From: Chitinophagales bacterium
GTDB taxonomy: Bacteria > Bacteroidota > Bacteroidia > Chitinophagales > Chitinophagaceae
Direction of reading: 5' to 3'
DNA length: 64,000 bases
Assembly: GCA_015655125.1 (NCBI GenBank)
Contig: JAATFP010000077.1
Span: 1 to 64,000 of the forward strand
Shown here one piece after another: positions 3,665 through 9,320 of the stretch. Below the pieces are notes generated by a model, which did no database searches, was not told where the DNA came from, and saw only the letters and a list, made by a program, of their open reading frames with translations. The first letter of the stretch is position 1, and each line of letters begins with the position of its first letter. The position numbers and the translations under genes were made by a program.

Positions 3665-3757
3665 ATGAAAGTTTTTTTTAAAAATATAGCAACAGCAAAA
3701 CGCGGGATCCACCCGATGGATCACGGGTTTTTTGGGGCAAATTGTATCGCAACGTAG
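3665..3757 (+). CDS. 30-residue leader-like peptide
   Basis: A short frame beginning MKVFFKNIATAKRG and continuing IHPMDHGFFGANCIAT. It begins about 30 nt after the predicted start of transcription. The middle (HPMDHGFFG) is composed like real protein rather than random sequence. The frame runs through a hairpin with a T run (3711-3733), so translation would disturb that structure. It could be an attenuator leader, a small functional peptide or a remnant; I do not recognise a family with certainty. Confidence 0.45.
   Translation: MKVFFKNIATAKRGIHPMDHGFFGANCIAT
3703..3733 (+). promoter_or_regulatory. Attenuator-like overlapping stems ending in a T run
   Basis: ACCCG (3711-3715) pairs with CGGGT (3724-3728), followed by T6: a terminator shape. 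Two competing pairings exist: GATCCA (3706-3711) with TGGATC (3717-3722), and CGGG (3703-3706) with CCCG (3712-3715). Mutually exclusive stems inside a translated leader are the arrangement used in transcription attenuation. The regulatory reading is inference. Confidence 0.45.
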
Positions 3758-3785
3758 TTACCAAACTTACTGCCTTTTACAATAG

Positions 3786-3810
3786 CCCCAACATCAAGTT
3801 GGGGTTTTTT
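3786..3810 (+). terminator. Intrinsic terminator
   Basis: CCCCAAC (3786-3792) and GTTGGGG (3798-3804) form a perfect 7-bp stem with loop ATCAA, followed by T6. It lies 28 nt after the leader peptide stop. Confidence 0.75.
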
Positions 3811-3850
3811 GTTGGAGCAAGTTTTTAAAAATCTGGAATAAAAAAATATT

Positions 3851-3979
3851 ATGACAAGCAACAACTTACATCAGTTATCCATTCGCTTTGGCGAAAATGC
3901 CGGCTACGTACCTGCATTTGAAAGGACATCTGTGGGTAAAAGCGACAAATTTAAACGACCGGACATTTCTGAAACGTAG
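3851..3979 (+). CDS. 42-residue hypothetical small protein
   Basis: The frame begins MTSNNLHQLSIRFGENAG and ends KRPDISET. It lies between two strong hairpin terminators (3786-3810 and 4005-4038), so it is set out as a separate short transcription unit. Composition is protein-like, hydrophilic, with no signal peptide or membrane segment. It may be the N-terminal stump of a longer lost gene; no family recognised. Confidence 0.4.
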   Translation: MTSNNLHQLSIRFGENAGYVPAFERTSVGKSDKFKRPDISET

Positions 3980-4004
3980 CAAACAAGCACTTTGCATCGT
4001 ATGG

Positions 4005-4038
4005 GCCCGGTCGGATGAATCATCTGACCGGGCTTTTT
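4005..4038 (+). terminator. Strong intrinsic terminator
   Basis: GCCCGGTC (4005-4012) pairs perfectly with GACCGGGC (4026-4033); the apical part adds GATG/CATC around an AAT loop; T5 follows. It is one of the most stable hairpins in the window. Confidence 0.85.
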
Positions 4039-4068
4039 GTTTTGGACCCGGCCGCAAAATAAACAAAT

Positions 4069-4550: not shown

Positions 4551-4623
4551 ATAGAAGTATTCCGATTGGCCGGATGCTCCGCCTGGACCGGAGAGGCTGC
4601 AGGTTCGAATCCTGCCTTCTATA
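4551..4623 (+). ncRNA. tRNA-like cloverleaf with UGG in the anticodon position but no U33
   Basis: Conventional order. Acceptor ATAGAAG (4551-4557) pairs with CTTCTAT (4616-4622), and T4550/A4623 can add an eighth pair. D stem TCCG/CGGA (4561-4564/4571-4574) has GG in the loop. Anticodon stem CTCCG/CGGAG (4577-4581/4589-4593) encloses CCTGGAC, so position 33 is C instead of the universal U and the triplet would be UGG (Pro). The T arm GCAGG-TTCGAAT-CCTGC (4599-4615) is canonical. Three bases rather than two separate the acceptor and D stems, and no CCA is encoded. The arms are well preserved, but the anticodon loop argues against use in translation; a decoy or repair-linked RNA, or a decayed tRNA-Pro, are the alternatives. 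Confidence 0.65.
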
Positions 4624-4769
4624 CTGAGATGTAAAATAGTAAATGTAAAATAAGTGAATAAGAAAGTAAAGCAGCGTACAATGCGCTAGTTTTTTTGGTA
4701 CCGCGATTGGCTAAATGTGTGAATTAAAAATGACTTGACTTTTTCATTCCCTTATTTATTATTTCCCCA

Positions 4770-4841
4770 GGACGAATAACTCAATTGGTAGAGTGCCGGA
4801 GTGAAGATCCGGTTGCACAGGTTCGATTCCTGTTTCGTCCG
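4770..4841 (+). tRNA. tRNA-Phe(GAA)-like gene
   Basis: All arms are present in normal order: acceptor GGACGAA/TTCGTCC (4770-4776/4834-4840), UA, D stem ACTC/GAGT with GG in the loop, anticodon stem CCGGA/TCCGG around GTGAAGA (U33 present, anticodon GAA), four-base variable loop, T arm ACAGG-TTCGATT-CCTGT. Oddities are G at position 32, G37 instead of the usual A37 of bacterial tRNA-Phe, and G rather than A as discriminator; CCA is not encoded. It is probably a divergent or accessory tRNA rather than the housekeeping tRNA-Phe. Confidence 0.75.
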
Positions 4842-4887
4842 CATAAAAATTCAATCTTTAAAATCGAAGAAAGTAAAAATTAAAAAA

Positions 4888-5357
4888 ATGGAAACGGAAC
4901 AGCAGAAGATATTTGAGGTCAACAATATTTTCAAAGAAGATTATATAAGCAGCCAGGCTTTGTACATGGATTTGTTCAATGAAATTCCGAATGTGAATTA
5001 CCTGAGAGACATTGATGGAGAAAAACCTTTTATTGCGATAAAAGAAAAATTTGGGGCGCAGATTATATCTCCGACGGCTTGCTGGCAGATTTTTTAAACG
5101 TGCAACTCATCCGCACCTTCAACAATTCGCTTACTATGGTGGACAGCGCGTTGATGCGGAAAGGAATGCTGATAGCAAAATATGAATTCGGAAAACTGGG
5201 GATCAATAAATCGCAGCGATTATCGCGCCACCTCGGATTTGATTCGGTCATCAATGAACCGATGACGATCGCGGAAATCGCCCATCAACATGAAAAAATG
5301 CAGGTGACAGAAAGGGTGGAAGTATTGGGGTTTCGGCGAAGCGCAGCAACACTGTAA
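4888..5357 (+). pseudogene. Broken AAA+ ATPase gene (frameshift and internal deletion)
   Basis: One frame runs from ATG 4888 (METEQQKIFEVNNIFKEDYI) to a stop at 5095-5097. The sequence continues in another frame from about 5058 to the stop at 5355-5357. A shift at the GGGG of 5053-5056 rejoins them as KFGADYISDGLLADFLNVQL. The C-terminal part (DSALMRKGMLIAKYEFGKL, then NEPMTIAEI) is typical of the end of AAA+ ATPases, around the second-region-of-homology arginine. No Walker A or B motif remains, so the nucleotide-binding core has been deleted. An AAA+ protein next to slipin and RtcB would fit an RNA-repair island, but this copy cannot hydrolyse ATP. Confidence 0.6.
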
Positions 5358-5393
5358 AAACACGTGAAACGATTGTTTAGAAAATAATGATAT

Positions 5394-5443
5394 CCGCAGC
5401 AGCGGGAAAATCAGTTCAATGGAAGACGCAAACCGGGTGTTTG
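5394..5443 (+). ncRNA. Degenerate third permuted tRNA-like element (weak)
   Basis: CCGC-AGCA-GCGG (5394-5405) is a closed hairpin like the sealed acceptor of the two elements downstream. It is followed by a D-arm-like GTTCAATGGAAGAC (5414-5427) and by CAAAC/GTTTG (5429-5433/5439-5443) around CGGGT. No T arm is recognisable upstream or downstream. I treat it as a remnant. Confidence 0.25.
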
Positions 5444-5510
5444 TTTTACACGCAACACAGTGCAGCCGTAGTTACGAGTTGTATGCTATTGCCCTTACAT
5501 TGTTCTTTAA

Positions 5511-5578
5511 CCTACGGGTCGGAGGTTTGAATCCTCCCTCCGGCAAACACCGGAGTAGCTCAGGGATAGAGCAGTAGA
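5511..5578 (+). ncRNA. Circularly permuted tRNA-like RNA, open in the anticodon loop
   Basis: The order is anticodon 3' strand CCTAC (5511-5515), variable GGGTC, T arm GGAGG-TTTGAAT-CCTCC (5521-5537), acceptor 3' strand CTCCGG (5538-5543), linker CAAACA, acceptor 5' strand CCGGAG (5550-5555), UA, D arm GCTC-AGGGATA-GAGC (5558-5572), A26, anticodon 5' strand GTAG (5574-5577). The acceptor forms 6 perfect pairs across the linker and the anticodon stem 4 pairs. A conventional reading needs mismatches (for example GCCGTAG at 5465 against CTCCGGC, or CCGGAG against CTCCTG) and leaves only 12 nt for the anticodon arm. The T loop has U instead of C at position 56. The topology is that of a tRNA sealed at the acceptor end and cut in the anticodon loop. 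Confidence 0.6.
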
Positions 5579-5584
5579 CCATTT

Positions 5585-5658
5585 GCAGGTTCGAATCCTG
5601 TCTCCTGAAAAGGAGTAGCATAAACTGGTAAATGCAAAGCACATGGGATGCTTATCAC
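5585..5658 (+). ncRNA. Circularly permuted tRNA-like RNA, open before the T arm
   Basis: The order is T arm GCAGG-TTCGAAT-CCTGT (5585-5601), acceptor 3' strand CTCCT (5602-5606), GAAA tetraloop, acceptor 5' strand AGGAG (5611-5615), UA, D arm GCAT-AAACTGGTAA-ATGC (5618-5635), A26, anticodon arm AAGCA-CATGGGA-TGCTT (5637-5653), variable ATCAC (5654-5658). Every stem pairs, and the acceptor is closed by a GNRA-type loop. The anticodon triplet by position is UGG with G37, as in tRNA-Pro, but position 33 is A. It begins 7 nt after the preceding permuted element. Yrl-type bacterial Y RNAs also contain a tRNA-like domain, which is the closest known comparison. Confidence 0.6.
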
Positions 5659-5700
5659 GCGGGACTCACCCAACCTTATATGGGTGGAACGTAAAGTAGG

Positions 5701-5940
5701 AATTGCTTTCCGCCAACAATGACCGGCAAAGGCCGGCATCGGAAGCACTTCAGTAAACGCTTTGCAGGTGATCGGGCAATTTGCCGGAAGTTTCACTTTT
5801 CCGGATTTGGATCATGGAAATTGTTTCATGACAACGATCCGGAAAACTGTTGCCAAACGCTGATGAAAAGATCACTTCCGTGCTTACGGAAGACGAAAGC
5901 AATTTCAACTTTATTAAAAACAATTTGAAAATATTTTAAA
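5701..5940 (+). pseudogene. Decayed coding remnant upstream of the slipin gene
   Basis: Protein-like stretches occur in several frames without a shared start: SVNALQVIGQFAGSFTFPDL in one, SWKLFHDNDPE in a second (an open frame from ATG 5719 to 5928), and KLLPNADEKITSVLTEDESN ending at the TAA of 5938-5940 in a third. Moving between the last two requires a single-base shift near 5840. This looks like the end of a frameshifted gene. No family recognised. Confidence 0.3.
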
Positions 5941-5949
5941 TAAAACACA

Positions 5950-7047
5950 ATGAAAAAAGTAAAAGTAAATGCCTGGCAAAAAGGCCTGGTATTTAAAAAC
6001 GGCGTTTATCAGAGAATGATCGGGGAAGGAATCTACTGGTTTTGGAGCGAAACCGTAAGATTGTACGACGTAACGGTGCAGTTTTATGCGCCGGTGGAAT
6101 TAAACATCTTGTTGCAGGATGCTTTGCTGGCAGCGGCTTTGGAAGTGGTGGATGTGAAAGACAACGAGATCGTGTTGCATTATGAAAATGGCTCGTTGAA
6201 ACAAGTATTGGCAGCAGGCAGATATACTTTCTGGAAATCTGTGATCGACAATAAATTTGTCCGGGCAGATATCGGCAAGATCGCGATCACGGAAGATATT
6301 TCCAGGGACGTGTTGCTGAGCAAATTGGTGGTGTCTTACGTGAGAACGTATACCGTGGAAAGTTATGAAAAAGCGGTGTTGTTCATCGATGGGAAATATG
6401 TGCAGACATTGGAAGCCGGTATTTATTACTGGTGGAAAAACAGCATCAGCATTGCCGTAGGCAAAGCAGATGCGCGGGCGCAGCAGCTGGAGATCAACGG
6501 GCAGGAAATTTTGACGAAAGACAAAGCGGCCTTGCGGATCAATGCGTATGCACAATATCAACTGACGGATATTGAAAAAGCTTTGTTGGAAAACAAAGAA
6601 TATGAAAAGCAGTTGTATGTGGCGTTCCAATTGGCTTTGCGGGAATATGTGGGCGGTTATGGGTTTGATGAATTGCTGGCAAACAAAGATGCGATCGCGC
6701 CTTATGTATTGCAGTCCGTGAAAGAAAAGGCCGAAGCACTTGGCGTGGAAGTAAACAACTTCGGTATCCGGGACATTATCTTGCCAGGCGATGTAAAAGA
6801 GATCATGAACAAAGTATTGATCGCTGAAAAAAATGCGCAGGCAAACAGCATCATGCGGAGAGAAGAAACTGCCAGCACCAGAAGTTTGTTGAACACCGCC
6901 AAATTGATGGAAGATAACGCGATGCTTTGGAAATTGAAAGAAATGGAATATGTAGAAAAGATCGCGGAAAAGATCAACAGCATCAGCGTAAGTGGAAACG
7001 GCATGTTGGTGGATCAGTTGAAGCAGATCTTTGTGGCGGGAAAATAA
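5950..7047 (+). CDS. Slipin/SPFH (band 7) family protein
   Basis: 365 residues with the SPFH/band-7 fold: strand-rich N-terminal repeats (EGIYWFWSE, AGRYTFWKS, AGIYYWWKN), a core near residues 185-260 (LTKDKAALRINAYAQYQLTD), and an alanine/glutamate-rich helical tail with IRDIILPGDVKEIMNKVLIA. There is no N-terminal membrane helix, unlike many slipins. The N-terminus contains internally repeated xxGxYxFW motifs. A slipin gene close to rtcB is a recurrent association in bacterial RNA-repair loci, so a scaffold role in that system is plausible. It starts 9 nt after a decayed frame and is followed by its own terminator. Confidence 0.85.
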   Translation: MKKVKVNAWQKGLVFKNGVYQRMIGEGIYWFWSETVRLYDVTVQFYAPVELNILLQDALLAAALEVVDVKDNEIVLHYENGSLKQVLAAGRYTFWKSVIDNKFVRADIGKIAITEDISRDVLLSKLVVSYVRTYTVESYEKAVLFIDGKYVQTLEAGIYYWWKNSISIAVGKADARAQQLEINGQEILTKDKAALRINAYAQYQLTDIEKALLENKEYEKQLYVAFQLALREYVGGYGFDELLANKDAIAPYVLQSVKEKAEALGVEVNNFGIRDIILPGDVKEIMNKVLIAEKNAQANSIMRREETASTRSLLNTAKLMEDNAMLWKLKEMEYVEKIAEKINSISVSGNGMLVDQLKQIFVAGK

Positions 7048-7051
7048 AACA

Positions 7052-7811: not shown

Positions 7812-7830
7812 ATTATCTTTTCGAAATGTA

Positions 7831-7854
7831 AGCCATCGAAAGATGGCTTTTTTT
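7831..7854 (+). promoter_or_regulatory. Terminator/attenuator hairpin immediately before rtcB
   Basis: AGCCATC (7831-7837) and GATGGCT (7842-7848) form a perfect 7-bp stem closed by a GAAA loop, with T7 at 7848-7854. The rtcB ATG is at 7866, so no promoter can fit between the T run and the start. rtcB transcription must therefore read through this element or be limited by it. A TATCTTTT at 7814-7821 resembles a -7 box and would place the start upstream of the hairpin. Confidence 0.75.
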
Positions 7855-7865
7855 ATATAGTTACA

Positions 7866-9320
7866 ATGAGCAAATTAAAACTAACCGGTAAACAAATTCG
7901 CGCCCTTGGCTACGAAGAAGGTCCGGTAATAAGCGTGGCAATGCACACCATGTGTACCCACTTTAAACATCACACGGAAGAGGAAGCGCTGGATATTTTA
8001 AAAGACATCCAGGCTGCGCCGGAACAATACCTGGCCGACGAAGTGCTGGGAAAAATCGCAGAAAAACTGATCGCAGTTCCGGATGAAGATCCGAATGCGG
8101 AAATTCCGCTGAATGAAACGCCGATCCAATACAACATCTTTGGTGCGGAACATATTGAAGAAGGTGCGCTTTCGCAAATGCACACTGCGGCGCGATTGCC
8201 GGTGGCAGTTGCAGGTGCCTTGATGCCCGATGCGCATCATGGTTACGGATTGCCGATCGGCGGGGTGCTGGCCACCAACAACGCTATCATTCCTTACGCC
8301 GTGGGCGTGGATATTGGTTGCAGAATGTGTTTGAGCATTTTTGATGTAGAGGCGAATGATCTTTCAAAACGCCAATCGTATTATCAACGTGAGCTGGTAG
8401 CAAATACCTTGTTTGGTGCCGGAAAAGATTTTGCCGATAAGATCGATCATCAGGTGATGGAAAGCGAAGTGTTTGACGAAATTCCATTCGTTGGTTTGTT
8501 GCAAAACAAAGCCTGGAAACAATTGGGTTCTTCCGGGAGCGGAAATCATTTTGTTGAATTTGGCGAAGTAGAAATTACCGATGCCGAAAATCCATTCAAA
8601 GTGCCGCCGGGAAAATATGTGGGATTGCTGACACACAGCGGCAGTCGCGGTCTGGGCGCCAACATTGCCAATCATTATACACAGATTGCGATGATGAAAA
8701 CCGTGTTGCCAAACGAAGCAAAACATCTTGCATGGCTGGATCTGGATACGCAGGAAGGCATGGAATATTGGCTGGCGATGAATTTGGCCGGTGATTACGC
8801 AAGTGCGTGTCATCATACGATCCATGATAAGATCGCGAAAGCGATCGGTCAGAAACCAGTTGCTCGCGTGGAGAATCATCACAACTTTGCATGGAAAGAA
8901 ACATGGGAAGGGAAAGAAGTGATCGTTCACCGTAAAGGCGCCACGCCTGCCGGCAAAGATGTTCTTGGAATTATTCCGGGAAGTATGACGGCGCCGGGGT
9001 TTATCGTAAAAGGTAAAGGGGAATCTGCTGCAGTTAATTCTGCCAGCCATTGTGCGGGCCGGAAGATGAGCCGCTCCAAAGCATTGGCAAATATCACCAA
9101 CGAAGCGCTTAAAAAAGAGCTCGCCGCGCATGGCGTAAAGCTGATCGGTGGCGGATTGGACGAAGCGCCGTTTGCGTATAAAGACATCAGCGAAGTGATG
9201 AAAAGTCAGACGCAGTTGGTGGATGTGGTGGGTAAATTTTTGCCAAAGATCGTTCAGATGGATGGCGCGAAGCACAAGGATTGGAGGAAGAAAAGTCACC
9301 GGGAGTTGACGGGTGAATAG
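7866..9320 (+). CDS. rtcB: RNA ligase RtcB family (3'-phosphate/5'-hydroxyl ligase)
   Basis: 484 residues with the RtcB fold. Visible motifs are MPDAHHGYGLPIGGVLA, GVDIGCRM (metal-binding Cys), GSGNHFVEFGE, LTHSGSRGLG and HHNFAWKE. The guanylylated-histidine region is SASHCAGRKMSR: the His is kept, with Cys in place of the more usual Gly after it. RtcB joins 2',3'-cyclic-phosphate or 3'-phosphate ends to 5'-OH ends using GTP and Mn2+, and repairs cleaved tRNAs. The N-terminal 100 residues are the extension seen in bacterial long-form RtcB. No archease gene is visible nearby. The position downstream of tRNA-like RNAs, slipin and HEPN supports an RNA-repair role. Confidence 0.93.
   Translation: MSKLKLTGKQIRALGYEEGPVISVAMHTMCTHFKHHTEEEALDILKDIQAAPEQYLADEVLGKIAEKLIAVPDEDPNAEIPLNETPIQYNIFGAEHIEEGALSQMHTAARLPVAVAGALMPDAHHGYGLPIGGVLATNNAIIPYAVGVDIGCRMCLSIFDVEANDLSKRQSYYQRELVANTLFGAGKDFADKIDHQVMESEVFDEIPFVGLLQNKAWKQLGSSGSGNHFVEFGEVEITDAENPFKVPPGKYVGLLTHSGSRGLGANIANHYTQIAMMKTVLPNEAKHLAWLDLDTQEGMEYWLAMNLAGDYASACHHTIHDKIAKAIGQKPVARVENHHNFAWKETWEGKEVIVHRKGATPAGKDVLGIIPGSMTAPGFIVKGKGESAAVNSASHCAGRKMSRSKALANITNEALKKELAAHGVKLIGGGLDEAPFAYKDISEVMKSQTQLVDVVGKFLPKIVQMDGAKHKDWRKKSHRELTGE

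Follow-up and report, generated by a model that had tools for sequence, protein, structure and literature searches.

A conserved, predicted structured RNA with two permuted tRNA-like modules upstream of slipin genes in Bacteroidota

Y RNAs were reportedly described as tRNA mimics by Chen in 2014. In the Rfam consensus of YrlA (RF02553) an open anticodon stem is followed by the T arm, an acceptor hairpin and the D arm. YrlA is reported to tether PNPase (PMC8394870) and to be associated with rtcB RNA-repair operons (PMC7790460; PMC8394870), as in the Salmonella rsr-yrlBA-rtcBA operon, where a tRNA-mimic RNA is encoded together with RtcB (PMC7790460; PMC9879122). The tRNA-like domain of Salmonella YrlA was proposed as a possible inhibitor of an anticodon nuclease and is described as uncut by a nuclease that cuts tRNAs there (PMC7790460). 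The targets of bacterial RtcB repair are described as poorly understood (PMC9879122). Permuted tRNA genes of algae and archaea have their 3' half first, joined to the 5' half through the acceptor end, and their intervening sequences can be as short as 1 bp (PMC3978253). In Anabaena PCC 7120, the repressor TrcR is reported to control a 26-tRNA operon together with rtcB, slipin and AAA ATPase genes, among many others (PMC10272220), so that a common regulator for genes of these kinds is possible.

In this paper we looked at a 64,000-nucleotide stretch of DNA from a Chitinophagales bacterium (hereafter the window), whose slipin has its nearest named relatives, by slipin comparison, in Ferruginibacter and other Chitinophagaceae. 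Two tandem tRNA-like modules (5512-5653) are located between a pair of conventional tRNA genes and the slipin gene. The features of this locus are as follows:

4551-4624, + strand: conventional tRNA-Pro (TGG), probably a remnant of an upstream array (ARAGORN; arrays in relatives).
4770-4842, + strand: conventional tRNA-Phe (GAA), probably a remnant of an upstream array (ARAGORN; arrays in relatives).
5067-5357, + strand: C-terminal remnant of an AAA ATPase gene (tblastn with the AAA protein of relative L045 matches 5067-5339, 77%).
5395-5511, + strand: probable 5' domain of uncertain boundary (helix swap test; DNA conservation from about 5424).
5512-5577, + strand: module 1 (TLS1), permuted tRNA-like fold (sequence, covariation and YrlA match).
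5585-5653, + strand: module 2 (TLS2), permuted tRNA-like fold (sequence, covariation and anticodon loop statistics).
5661-5686, + strand: site at which relatives conserve an H-type pseudoknot (template score in 44 loci).
5691-5914, + strand: 3' domain closed by a long-range helix (helix swap test; fold z-score).
5950-7047, + strand: gene for slipin, a membrane-ring protein (SPFH/Band 7) and the neighbour constantly found downstream of the RNA (Pfam PF01145, E 7.1e-31).
7866-9320, + strand: rtcB RNA ligase gene (Pfam PF01139, E 1.4e-80).

Module 1 begins with the 3' strand of the anticodon stem, followed by a five-base variable region, the T arm (5521-5537) and an acceptor hairpin (5538-5555) in which CTCCGG (5538-5543) pairs with CCGGAG (5550-5555), 6 bp around the loop CAAACA. 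A two-base joint, TA, then leads to the D arm (5558-5572) and to the 5' strand of the anticodon stem, which is thus left open, CTAC (5512-5515) pairing with GTAG (5574-5577). Module 2 begins with its T arm (5585-5601), followed by an acceptor hairpin (5602-5615; CTCCT 5602-5606 with AGGAG 5611-5615, 5 bp, loop GAAA), TA, the D arm (5618-5635) and a complete, closed anticodon arm (5637-5653; AAGCA-CATGGGA-TGCTT) with TGG at the anticodon position. In both modules the 3' half lies ahead of the 5' half and is joined to it via the acceptor end, as in a permuted gene. A full cloverleaf with its own anticodon loop is not found in each unit, module 1 being without such a loop. The original prediction had opened the first module in the anticodon loop and the second ahead of the T arm; every stem that it claimed is present in the window, and the modules are open at the places it gave.

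When the segment 5509-5659 is folded alone its z-score is -2.49, and 4 of 200 shuffled sequences fold equally well. In the minimum free energy structure module 1 loses its open anticodon stem and keeps its T, acceptor and D arms, and module 2 has its acceptor and D arms and 3 bp in its T stem but no anticodon arm. The case for the permuted fold therefore rests on comparison and not on the single sequence. Slipin matches were found in 54 of the 147 family genomes (32 at E below 1e-80), and relatives were fetched by slipin, which gave 43 loci from genome contigs. The sequence-only MAFFT alignment A1 holds 33 of 40 two-module sequences, the window included; judged by eye, L004, L026, L029, L055, L059, L063 and L066 were excluded from it and were still searched with the covariance model R1 (see below). 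In A1, 37 permuted pairs are formed in 96.6% of cells, against 71.5 ± 0.8% in shuffled controls and 38.7-49.5% when the pairs are slid. Compensatory double-change cells number 331 (89 ± 9 in shuffles), and 30 of the 37 pairs have a double change (24.4 ± 1.5 in shuffles). RNAalifold, unaided, predicts the identical 37 pairs, and the T-loop and D-arm columns are invariant or near-invariant in the alignment of relatives.

An alignment-free test was also performed, in which the T and D arms were located by their own motifs, blind to the acceptor pairing. Read in permuted order, the acceptor strands of 81 modules from 58 loci have 5.94 paired positions out of 7, against 3.53 ± 0.12 when the strands are swapped between loci, with a maximum of 3.95 in 1000 swaps. 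The ordinary tRNAs that lie upstream in these loci pair conventionally at 6.78 of 7 acceptor positions (n=23), and when they are read as permuted they give 3.45 against 3.23 ± 0.28 swapped (n=20). The modules can also be read in the conventional order, and the Rfam tRNA model does match 5549-5609 with 33.5 bits (gathering score 29); ARAGORN makes no call at the module site (5512-5653). Across 46 module pairs this reading gives 3.50 paired positions against 3.36 ± 0.15 swapped, and a conventional tRNA at 5549-5609 was rejected because, among the relatives, acceptor strands read conventionally across two modules pair hardly better than expected by chance.

Since the folds are kept while the letters change in many relatives, we take the RNA to be real, and the comparison confirms that the permuted pairing is not a matter of chance. 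Conservation of the permuted pairings in related loci had been set beforehand as the test that could refute the prediction of a tandem pair of permuted tRNA-like RNAs; the pairings are conserved, and the pair is borne out by covariation at slipin loci in Chitinophagaceae and far beyond. One might argue that the modules are decaying remnants of the upstream tRNA array, in which neighbouring half tRNAs merely happen to pair in the permuted way. Conventional tRNAs are indeed found upstream of slipin in 24 of the 43 contig loci, up to about 4 kb away, and decay is seen elsewhere in the window locus. Yet the compensatory changes throughout the permuted pairs, together with the swapped-strand, slid and array controls, contradict such an origin, which we regard as very improbable.

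R1 is a covariance model of both modules. It was run on 66 unique slipin loci including the window, which remained after identical sequences in the last 200 nt before slipin had been collapsed and among which its 33 training rows are included; in L065 and L069 a longer slipin open reading frame misplaces the 700-nt upstream stretch. A search with a permuted model across such loci had been suggested as a check on the prediction; with R1, 52 of the 66 loci score 84 bits or higher. Ten more loci score 50-84 bits, three score lower and one has no match; some of these 14 loci carry one module. The element is thereby found upstream of slipin in most relatives, from Chitinophagaceae, Sphingobacterium, Parapedobacter, Flavobacteriia, Cytophagales and Puteibacter to one Kapaibacterium. 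R1 was also used to search 147 family genomes and 395 phylum genomes. Excluding the window, 34 matches of at least 85 bits were fetched, and slipin lies inside the 1.5 kb flank of 33 of them, the sole exception (L124) being an ordinary tRNA array. The constant neighbour is therefore slipin and not rtcB, next to which the pair had been placed by the original prediction; rtcB is often present, but so are RlaP, AAA ATPase genes and tRNA arrays. Conventional tRNA arrays score up to about 60 bits with R1 inside slipin loci, and in whole genomes arrays that ARAGORN reads as conventional tRNAs score 88.7 (L124), 82.9 (L125), 82.2 (G396, near L117 212-382) and 77.6 bits (L104). Because of this, R1 score and position have to be read together, the score alone being no proof. 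A phage or viral origin was rejected, as viral contigs scanned with the slipin pattern contain no relative; one short phage record shows 28.5% identity over 41%.

The RNA extends beyond the two modules. The predicted pair was correct as far as it went and incomplete as an outline, for relatives add a pseudoknot and a long-range helix downstream. An H-type pseudoknot scores at least 9 in 32 of 44 loci, against 4.3% of mononucleotide shuffles. In the window its stem 2 is formed by CACCCA (5667-5672) and TGGGTG (5681-5686) and stem 1 is eroded to about 2 bp; the best window reading given by the script departs from the family template, so that this copy of the pseudoknot is weak. For the flanks, MAFFT with RNAalifold on the whole 5' and 3' regions was uninformative and helix swap tests were used instead. 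The 3' long-range helix, which in the window joins 5691-5710 (GTAAAGTAGGAATTGCTTTC) with 5895-5914 (GAAAGCAATTTCAACTTTAT) and ends about 35 nt ahead of the slipin start, scores 11.79 against 8.75 ± 0.21 for swapped strands (maximum 9.21 of 50 sets; 63 loci), and the 5' long-range helix, weak in the window, scores 8.27 against 6.89 ± 0.17 (39 loci), the regions for both having been picked after inspection of those flanks. An inner 5' hairpin (6.42 against 6.03 ± 0.14) is weak and is not claimed. The window segment 5395-5949 folds with a z-score of -5.21. In most loci the modules are followed by the pseudoknot and then by the long-range-helix domain, and module pair, pseudoknot and 3' domain recur jointly at one position before slipin. 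Taken over Bacteroidota, the comparison shows a conserved RNA of predicted structure, roughly 0.5 kb in length, directly upstream of slipin and on the same strand.

How does this RNA relate to the Y RNAs? In YrlA, as in module 1, the anticodon stem is open to the rest of the RNA and is followed by the T, acceptor and D parts, so that module 1 is of a known fold type, and the view that a permuted order is foreign to bacteria does not hold, the Rfam YrlA consensus having that very order. Module 1 matches the YrlA model with 36.3 bits at 5513-5579 (E 2.9e-6; gathering score 69), in an alignment that spans model positions 23-88 of 114 and leaves the Ro60-binding stem unmatched. Among 12 relatives scanned, an RF02553 match overlaps the leader in all 12, mostly at module 1, with 27.5-47 bits (E 2.4e-7 to 0.11), all below the gathering score; L010, L012, L063 and L070 align to the full model (1-114) at 27.5-40 bits, likewise below the cut-off. 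By its predicted fold module 1 is of the YrlA type, and the RNA as a whole lacks the partner and the score of a YrlA. It differs from YrlA in its two tandem modules, in the closed anticodon arm of module 2, in its pseudoknot and 3' domain and in its place upstream of slipin; module 2, pseudoknot and 3' domain all lie outside the YrlA model.

The partner protein of Y RNAs was searched in 43 genomes. Twelve of these are phylum genomes and 31 are family genomes, the latter being all 32 whose slipin matches at E below 1e-80 except G071, in which slipin is broken. Ro60 (TROVE, PF05731) was not found in the genome of the window; it is absent in 38 of the 43 and present in 5, and in none of the 43 does a Ro60 gene lie within 30 kb of slipin or the element on the same contig. 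In four of the five Ro60 genomes, separate R1 matches, mainly to the module 1 half, are found about 1 kb from Ro60, and none was found near the fifth Ro60 gene (L147). One such place, in L138, was scanned with Rfam and matches YrlA with 38 bits, as a genuine Y RNA would. One possible option is a Ro60-independent Y RNA, in which module 1 would tether PNPase as YrlA does and a slipin ring would replace the Ro60 ring. The exact YrlA order of module 1, the RF02553 matches in the window and its relatives and the module-1-like elements near Ro60 speak for it, whereas the low scores, the Ro60 stem that is unmatched in the window, the rarity of Ro60 and its absence from the locus, and a second module with a closed arm that YrlA does not have speak against it, with slipin as ring partner being pure inference. 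We consider this option unlikely. Probable genuine Y RNAs of Bacteroidota are seen near Ro60 in L145 (3303-3448), L148 (4177-4251) and L149 (1893-2056), and three probable Y RNAs in a row in L146 (2096-2517).

Two-piece tmRNAs derive from permuted genes, and this precedent makes a permuted, two-piece tmRNA gene another candidate. ARAGORN finds no tmRNA in the window, no tmRNA model matches 5300-5950 at E up to 1, and the relatives L010 and L138 give matches of 18 nt only; this candidate was rejected and we hold it to be hardly credible. The other large ornate RNAs, GOLLD and ROOL among them, were also not found, either at E up to 1 in 5300-5950 or in the 12 relatives, and no Rfam 15 family covers the whole element. 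In the literature searched (best matches, with few subscription papers) no description of a permuted tRNA-like RNA ahead of slipin came to light. What is known, then, is the fold of module 1; what is new to Rfam and to the literature searched is the tandem arrangement, the closed anticodon arm, the larger RNA and the bond to slipin.

After the last detected D arm, a closed arm of 5 bp with a 7-nt loop is found in 44 of 63 loci; in the other 19, some of which have only module 1 recognized by the script, the arm is not closed. The 44 closed loops carry 18 different anticodons and have C32 in 31, U33 in 34, a purine at position 37 in 43 and A38 in 42. Positions 36 and 37 are linked (G36-G37 21, U36-A37 18, A36-A37 four, G-C one), and such a dependence of position 37 on position 36 is typical of genuine tRNAs. 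In the window the loop reads CATGGGA, with A at position 33, and its anticodon TGG is the same as that of the conventional tRNA-Pro 1 kb upstream. No C36 anticodon occurs in the 44 loops, whereas 13 of the 121 conventional tRNAs have one (Fisher p 0.02), a difference that is too weak to use, the rows not being independent. Such a loop could mean that these are real permuted tRNA genes, whose modules RtcB would circularize after nuclease cuts and whose acceptor loop RNase P and tRNase Z would open. The ligase gene is nearby, the tRNA-like loop of module 2 fits, and the order with the 3' half first and joined at the acceptor end is that of the algal and archaeal permuted genes, for which 1-bp intervening sequences are reported (PMC3978253). 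However, compared with those genes as they are described there, the slipin RNA is bacterial, tandem and part of a larger conserved RNA, and the anticodon loop is missing from module 1. In addition, the TGG of the window is redundant with the upstream tRNA-Pro, 19 of the 63 loci have no closed anticodon arm behind the last detected module, and the module pair occurs together with pseudoknot and 3' domain at a single place ahead of slipin. Circularized functional tRNAs are for these reasons less likely than a tRNA-mimic leader, and we judge them to be quite improbable.

RNA-repair genes are often found around the element. Of the 43 contig loci, 27 contain rtcB, 24 an RNase H-like gene, 14 an AAA ATPase and 9 a gene for RlaP, which belongs to the RNA-repair polymerase-beta family; in the remaining 16 loci rtcB was not found inside the fetched stretch, and some stretches are short. 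Compared with the Salmonella operon as it is described (PMC7790460; PMC9879122), slipin, RlaP and the AAA ATPase here replace Rsr and RtcA, and the permuted pair stands before slipin. The TrcR regulon likewise unites a tRNA operon with rtcB, slipin and AAA ATPase genes, but its genes are scattered and mixed with many others, and a tRNA-mimic RNA is not mentioned in the available part of that source (PMC10272220). The upstream tRNA arrays of the relatives (L032-L074) contain up to 18 tRNAs in a row (L071) in a broadly similar order. Could these tRNAs be an emergency set kept beside the repair genes? In L045, the interval between slipin and RlaP encodes a 237-aa protein (6335-7048) to which neither Pfam nor NCBIfam gave a match at an E-value of 0.01 or less.

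The reading that we prefer, and to which we give somewhat better than an even chance, is that the RNA is a structured leader of a repair locus whose two mimics would engage tRNA-binding or tRNA-damaging factors. The RNA would be the 5' leader of the slipin(-RlaP)-rtcB genes, or would be processed from it, a status supported by a search of the + strand that found no terminator-like site separating the element from slipin. It would imitate tRNA and not supply it. Its acceptor ends are joined by a loop, so that the mimic cannot be aminoacylated as it stands. The elbow (T loop and D loop) and the anticodon loop of module 2 may be presented to proteins that handle or damage tRNAs, with anticodon nucleases, the repair enzymes RtcB and RlaP, and PNPase as in Y RNA complexes as candidate partners, and binding or cutting may set the output of repair proteins or gather the repair machinery at the slipin ring. 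We infer the leader or leader-derived status, the protein-directed mimicry and the coupling of damage to repair; by such a mechanism the RNA would probably connect damage to tRNAs with RNA repair. An anticodon-like loop of varying identity beside a ligase gene favours a bait or sensor over a scaffold. Against cleavage sensing, for the module type of YrlA, is the report that the Salmonella domain is not cut by the nuclease that cuts tRNAs there (PMC7790460).

A bolder version of the preferred reading, which we find doubtful and speculative, is a self-resetting damage sensor that would form a new class of large regulatory RNA. Anticodon nucleases would cut the loop of module 2 in the slipin-RlaP-rtcB leader, the cut would refold the pseudoknot and the 3' domain and raise repair gene expression, and RtcB would seal the same loop and turn the system off. 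The bait anticodon would differ by species, and the conventional-order forms of Proteobacteria would be the same device built with a different chain order. Two tRNA mimics beside repair genes are a concrete object of which one can ask what binds them, what cuts them and whether RtcB mends them, and they bear on the role of Y-RNA-like domains in the absence of Ro60.

Upstream of slipin in Proteobacteria, other tRNA-like elements occupy the position that the permuted pair has in Bacteroidota. Two in conventional order are found in Photobacterium (L144 5665-5806) and one in Burkholderia (L143 5675-5747), with a shorter T-arm piece ahead of it, and further conventional-order elements were read by eye in the Burkholderia loci L152-L154. 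The anticodon loops of some of these are odd, and ARAGORN assigns no amino acid to two. In the slipin-RlaP leaders of Citrobacter and E. coli a permuted acceptor hairpin comes after a T arm, and a D arm is not clearly recognizable (L141 5809-5844; L140 5807-5841; also L150 and L151). The E. coli leader is present in 1624 of 5426 E. coli genomes; a compensatory T-stem change was seen between E. coli strains, by eye and in few sequences, and a site upstream of the T arm in E. coli and Citrobacter is presumably sigma-54-like. Conventional or partial elements before slipin in Proteobacteria imply that the tRNA-like shape may outweigh the chain order, and these few sequences, read by eye, suggest that a tRNA-like slipin leader may be more widespread than the permuted order. 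A tRNA mimicry that is kept in circularly permuted form is a clean natural case for weighing shape against chain order.

The window itself may hold a decaying copy of the locus, as its AAA ATPase gene is a remnant, an RlaP gene adjoining slipin was looked for and not found, and stem 1 of the pseudoknot is eroded. In some relatives the AAA ATPase gene upstream of the RNA is intact, and the intact open reading frame of L045 is a Pfam AAA protein; the two open reading frame pieces in the AAA region of the window gave no match in a Pfam search, and a short open reading frame preceding the remnant (4888-5097) lies in a different frame and by itself matches nothing. Between slipin and rtcB the window has a terminator-like hairpin (7830-7849), and its place just before rtcB means that rtcB may be transcribed separately from slipin here. 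Further upstream, a stretch of 350 nt (3690-4040) contains, as seen by eye, three GC-rich hairpins (near 3710, 3790 and 4010) with a T run behind each, and they resemble repeated terminators or attenuators.
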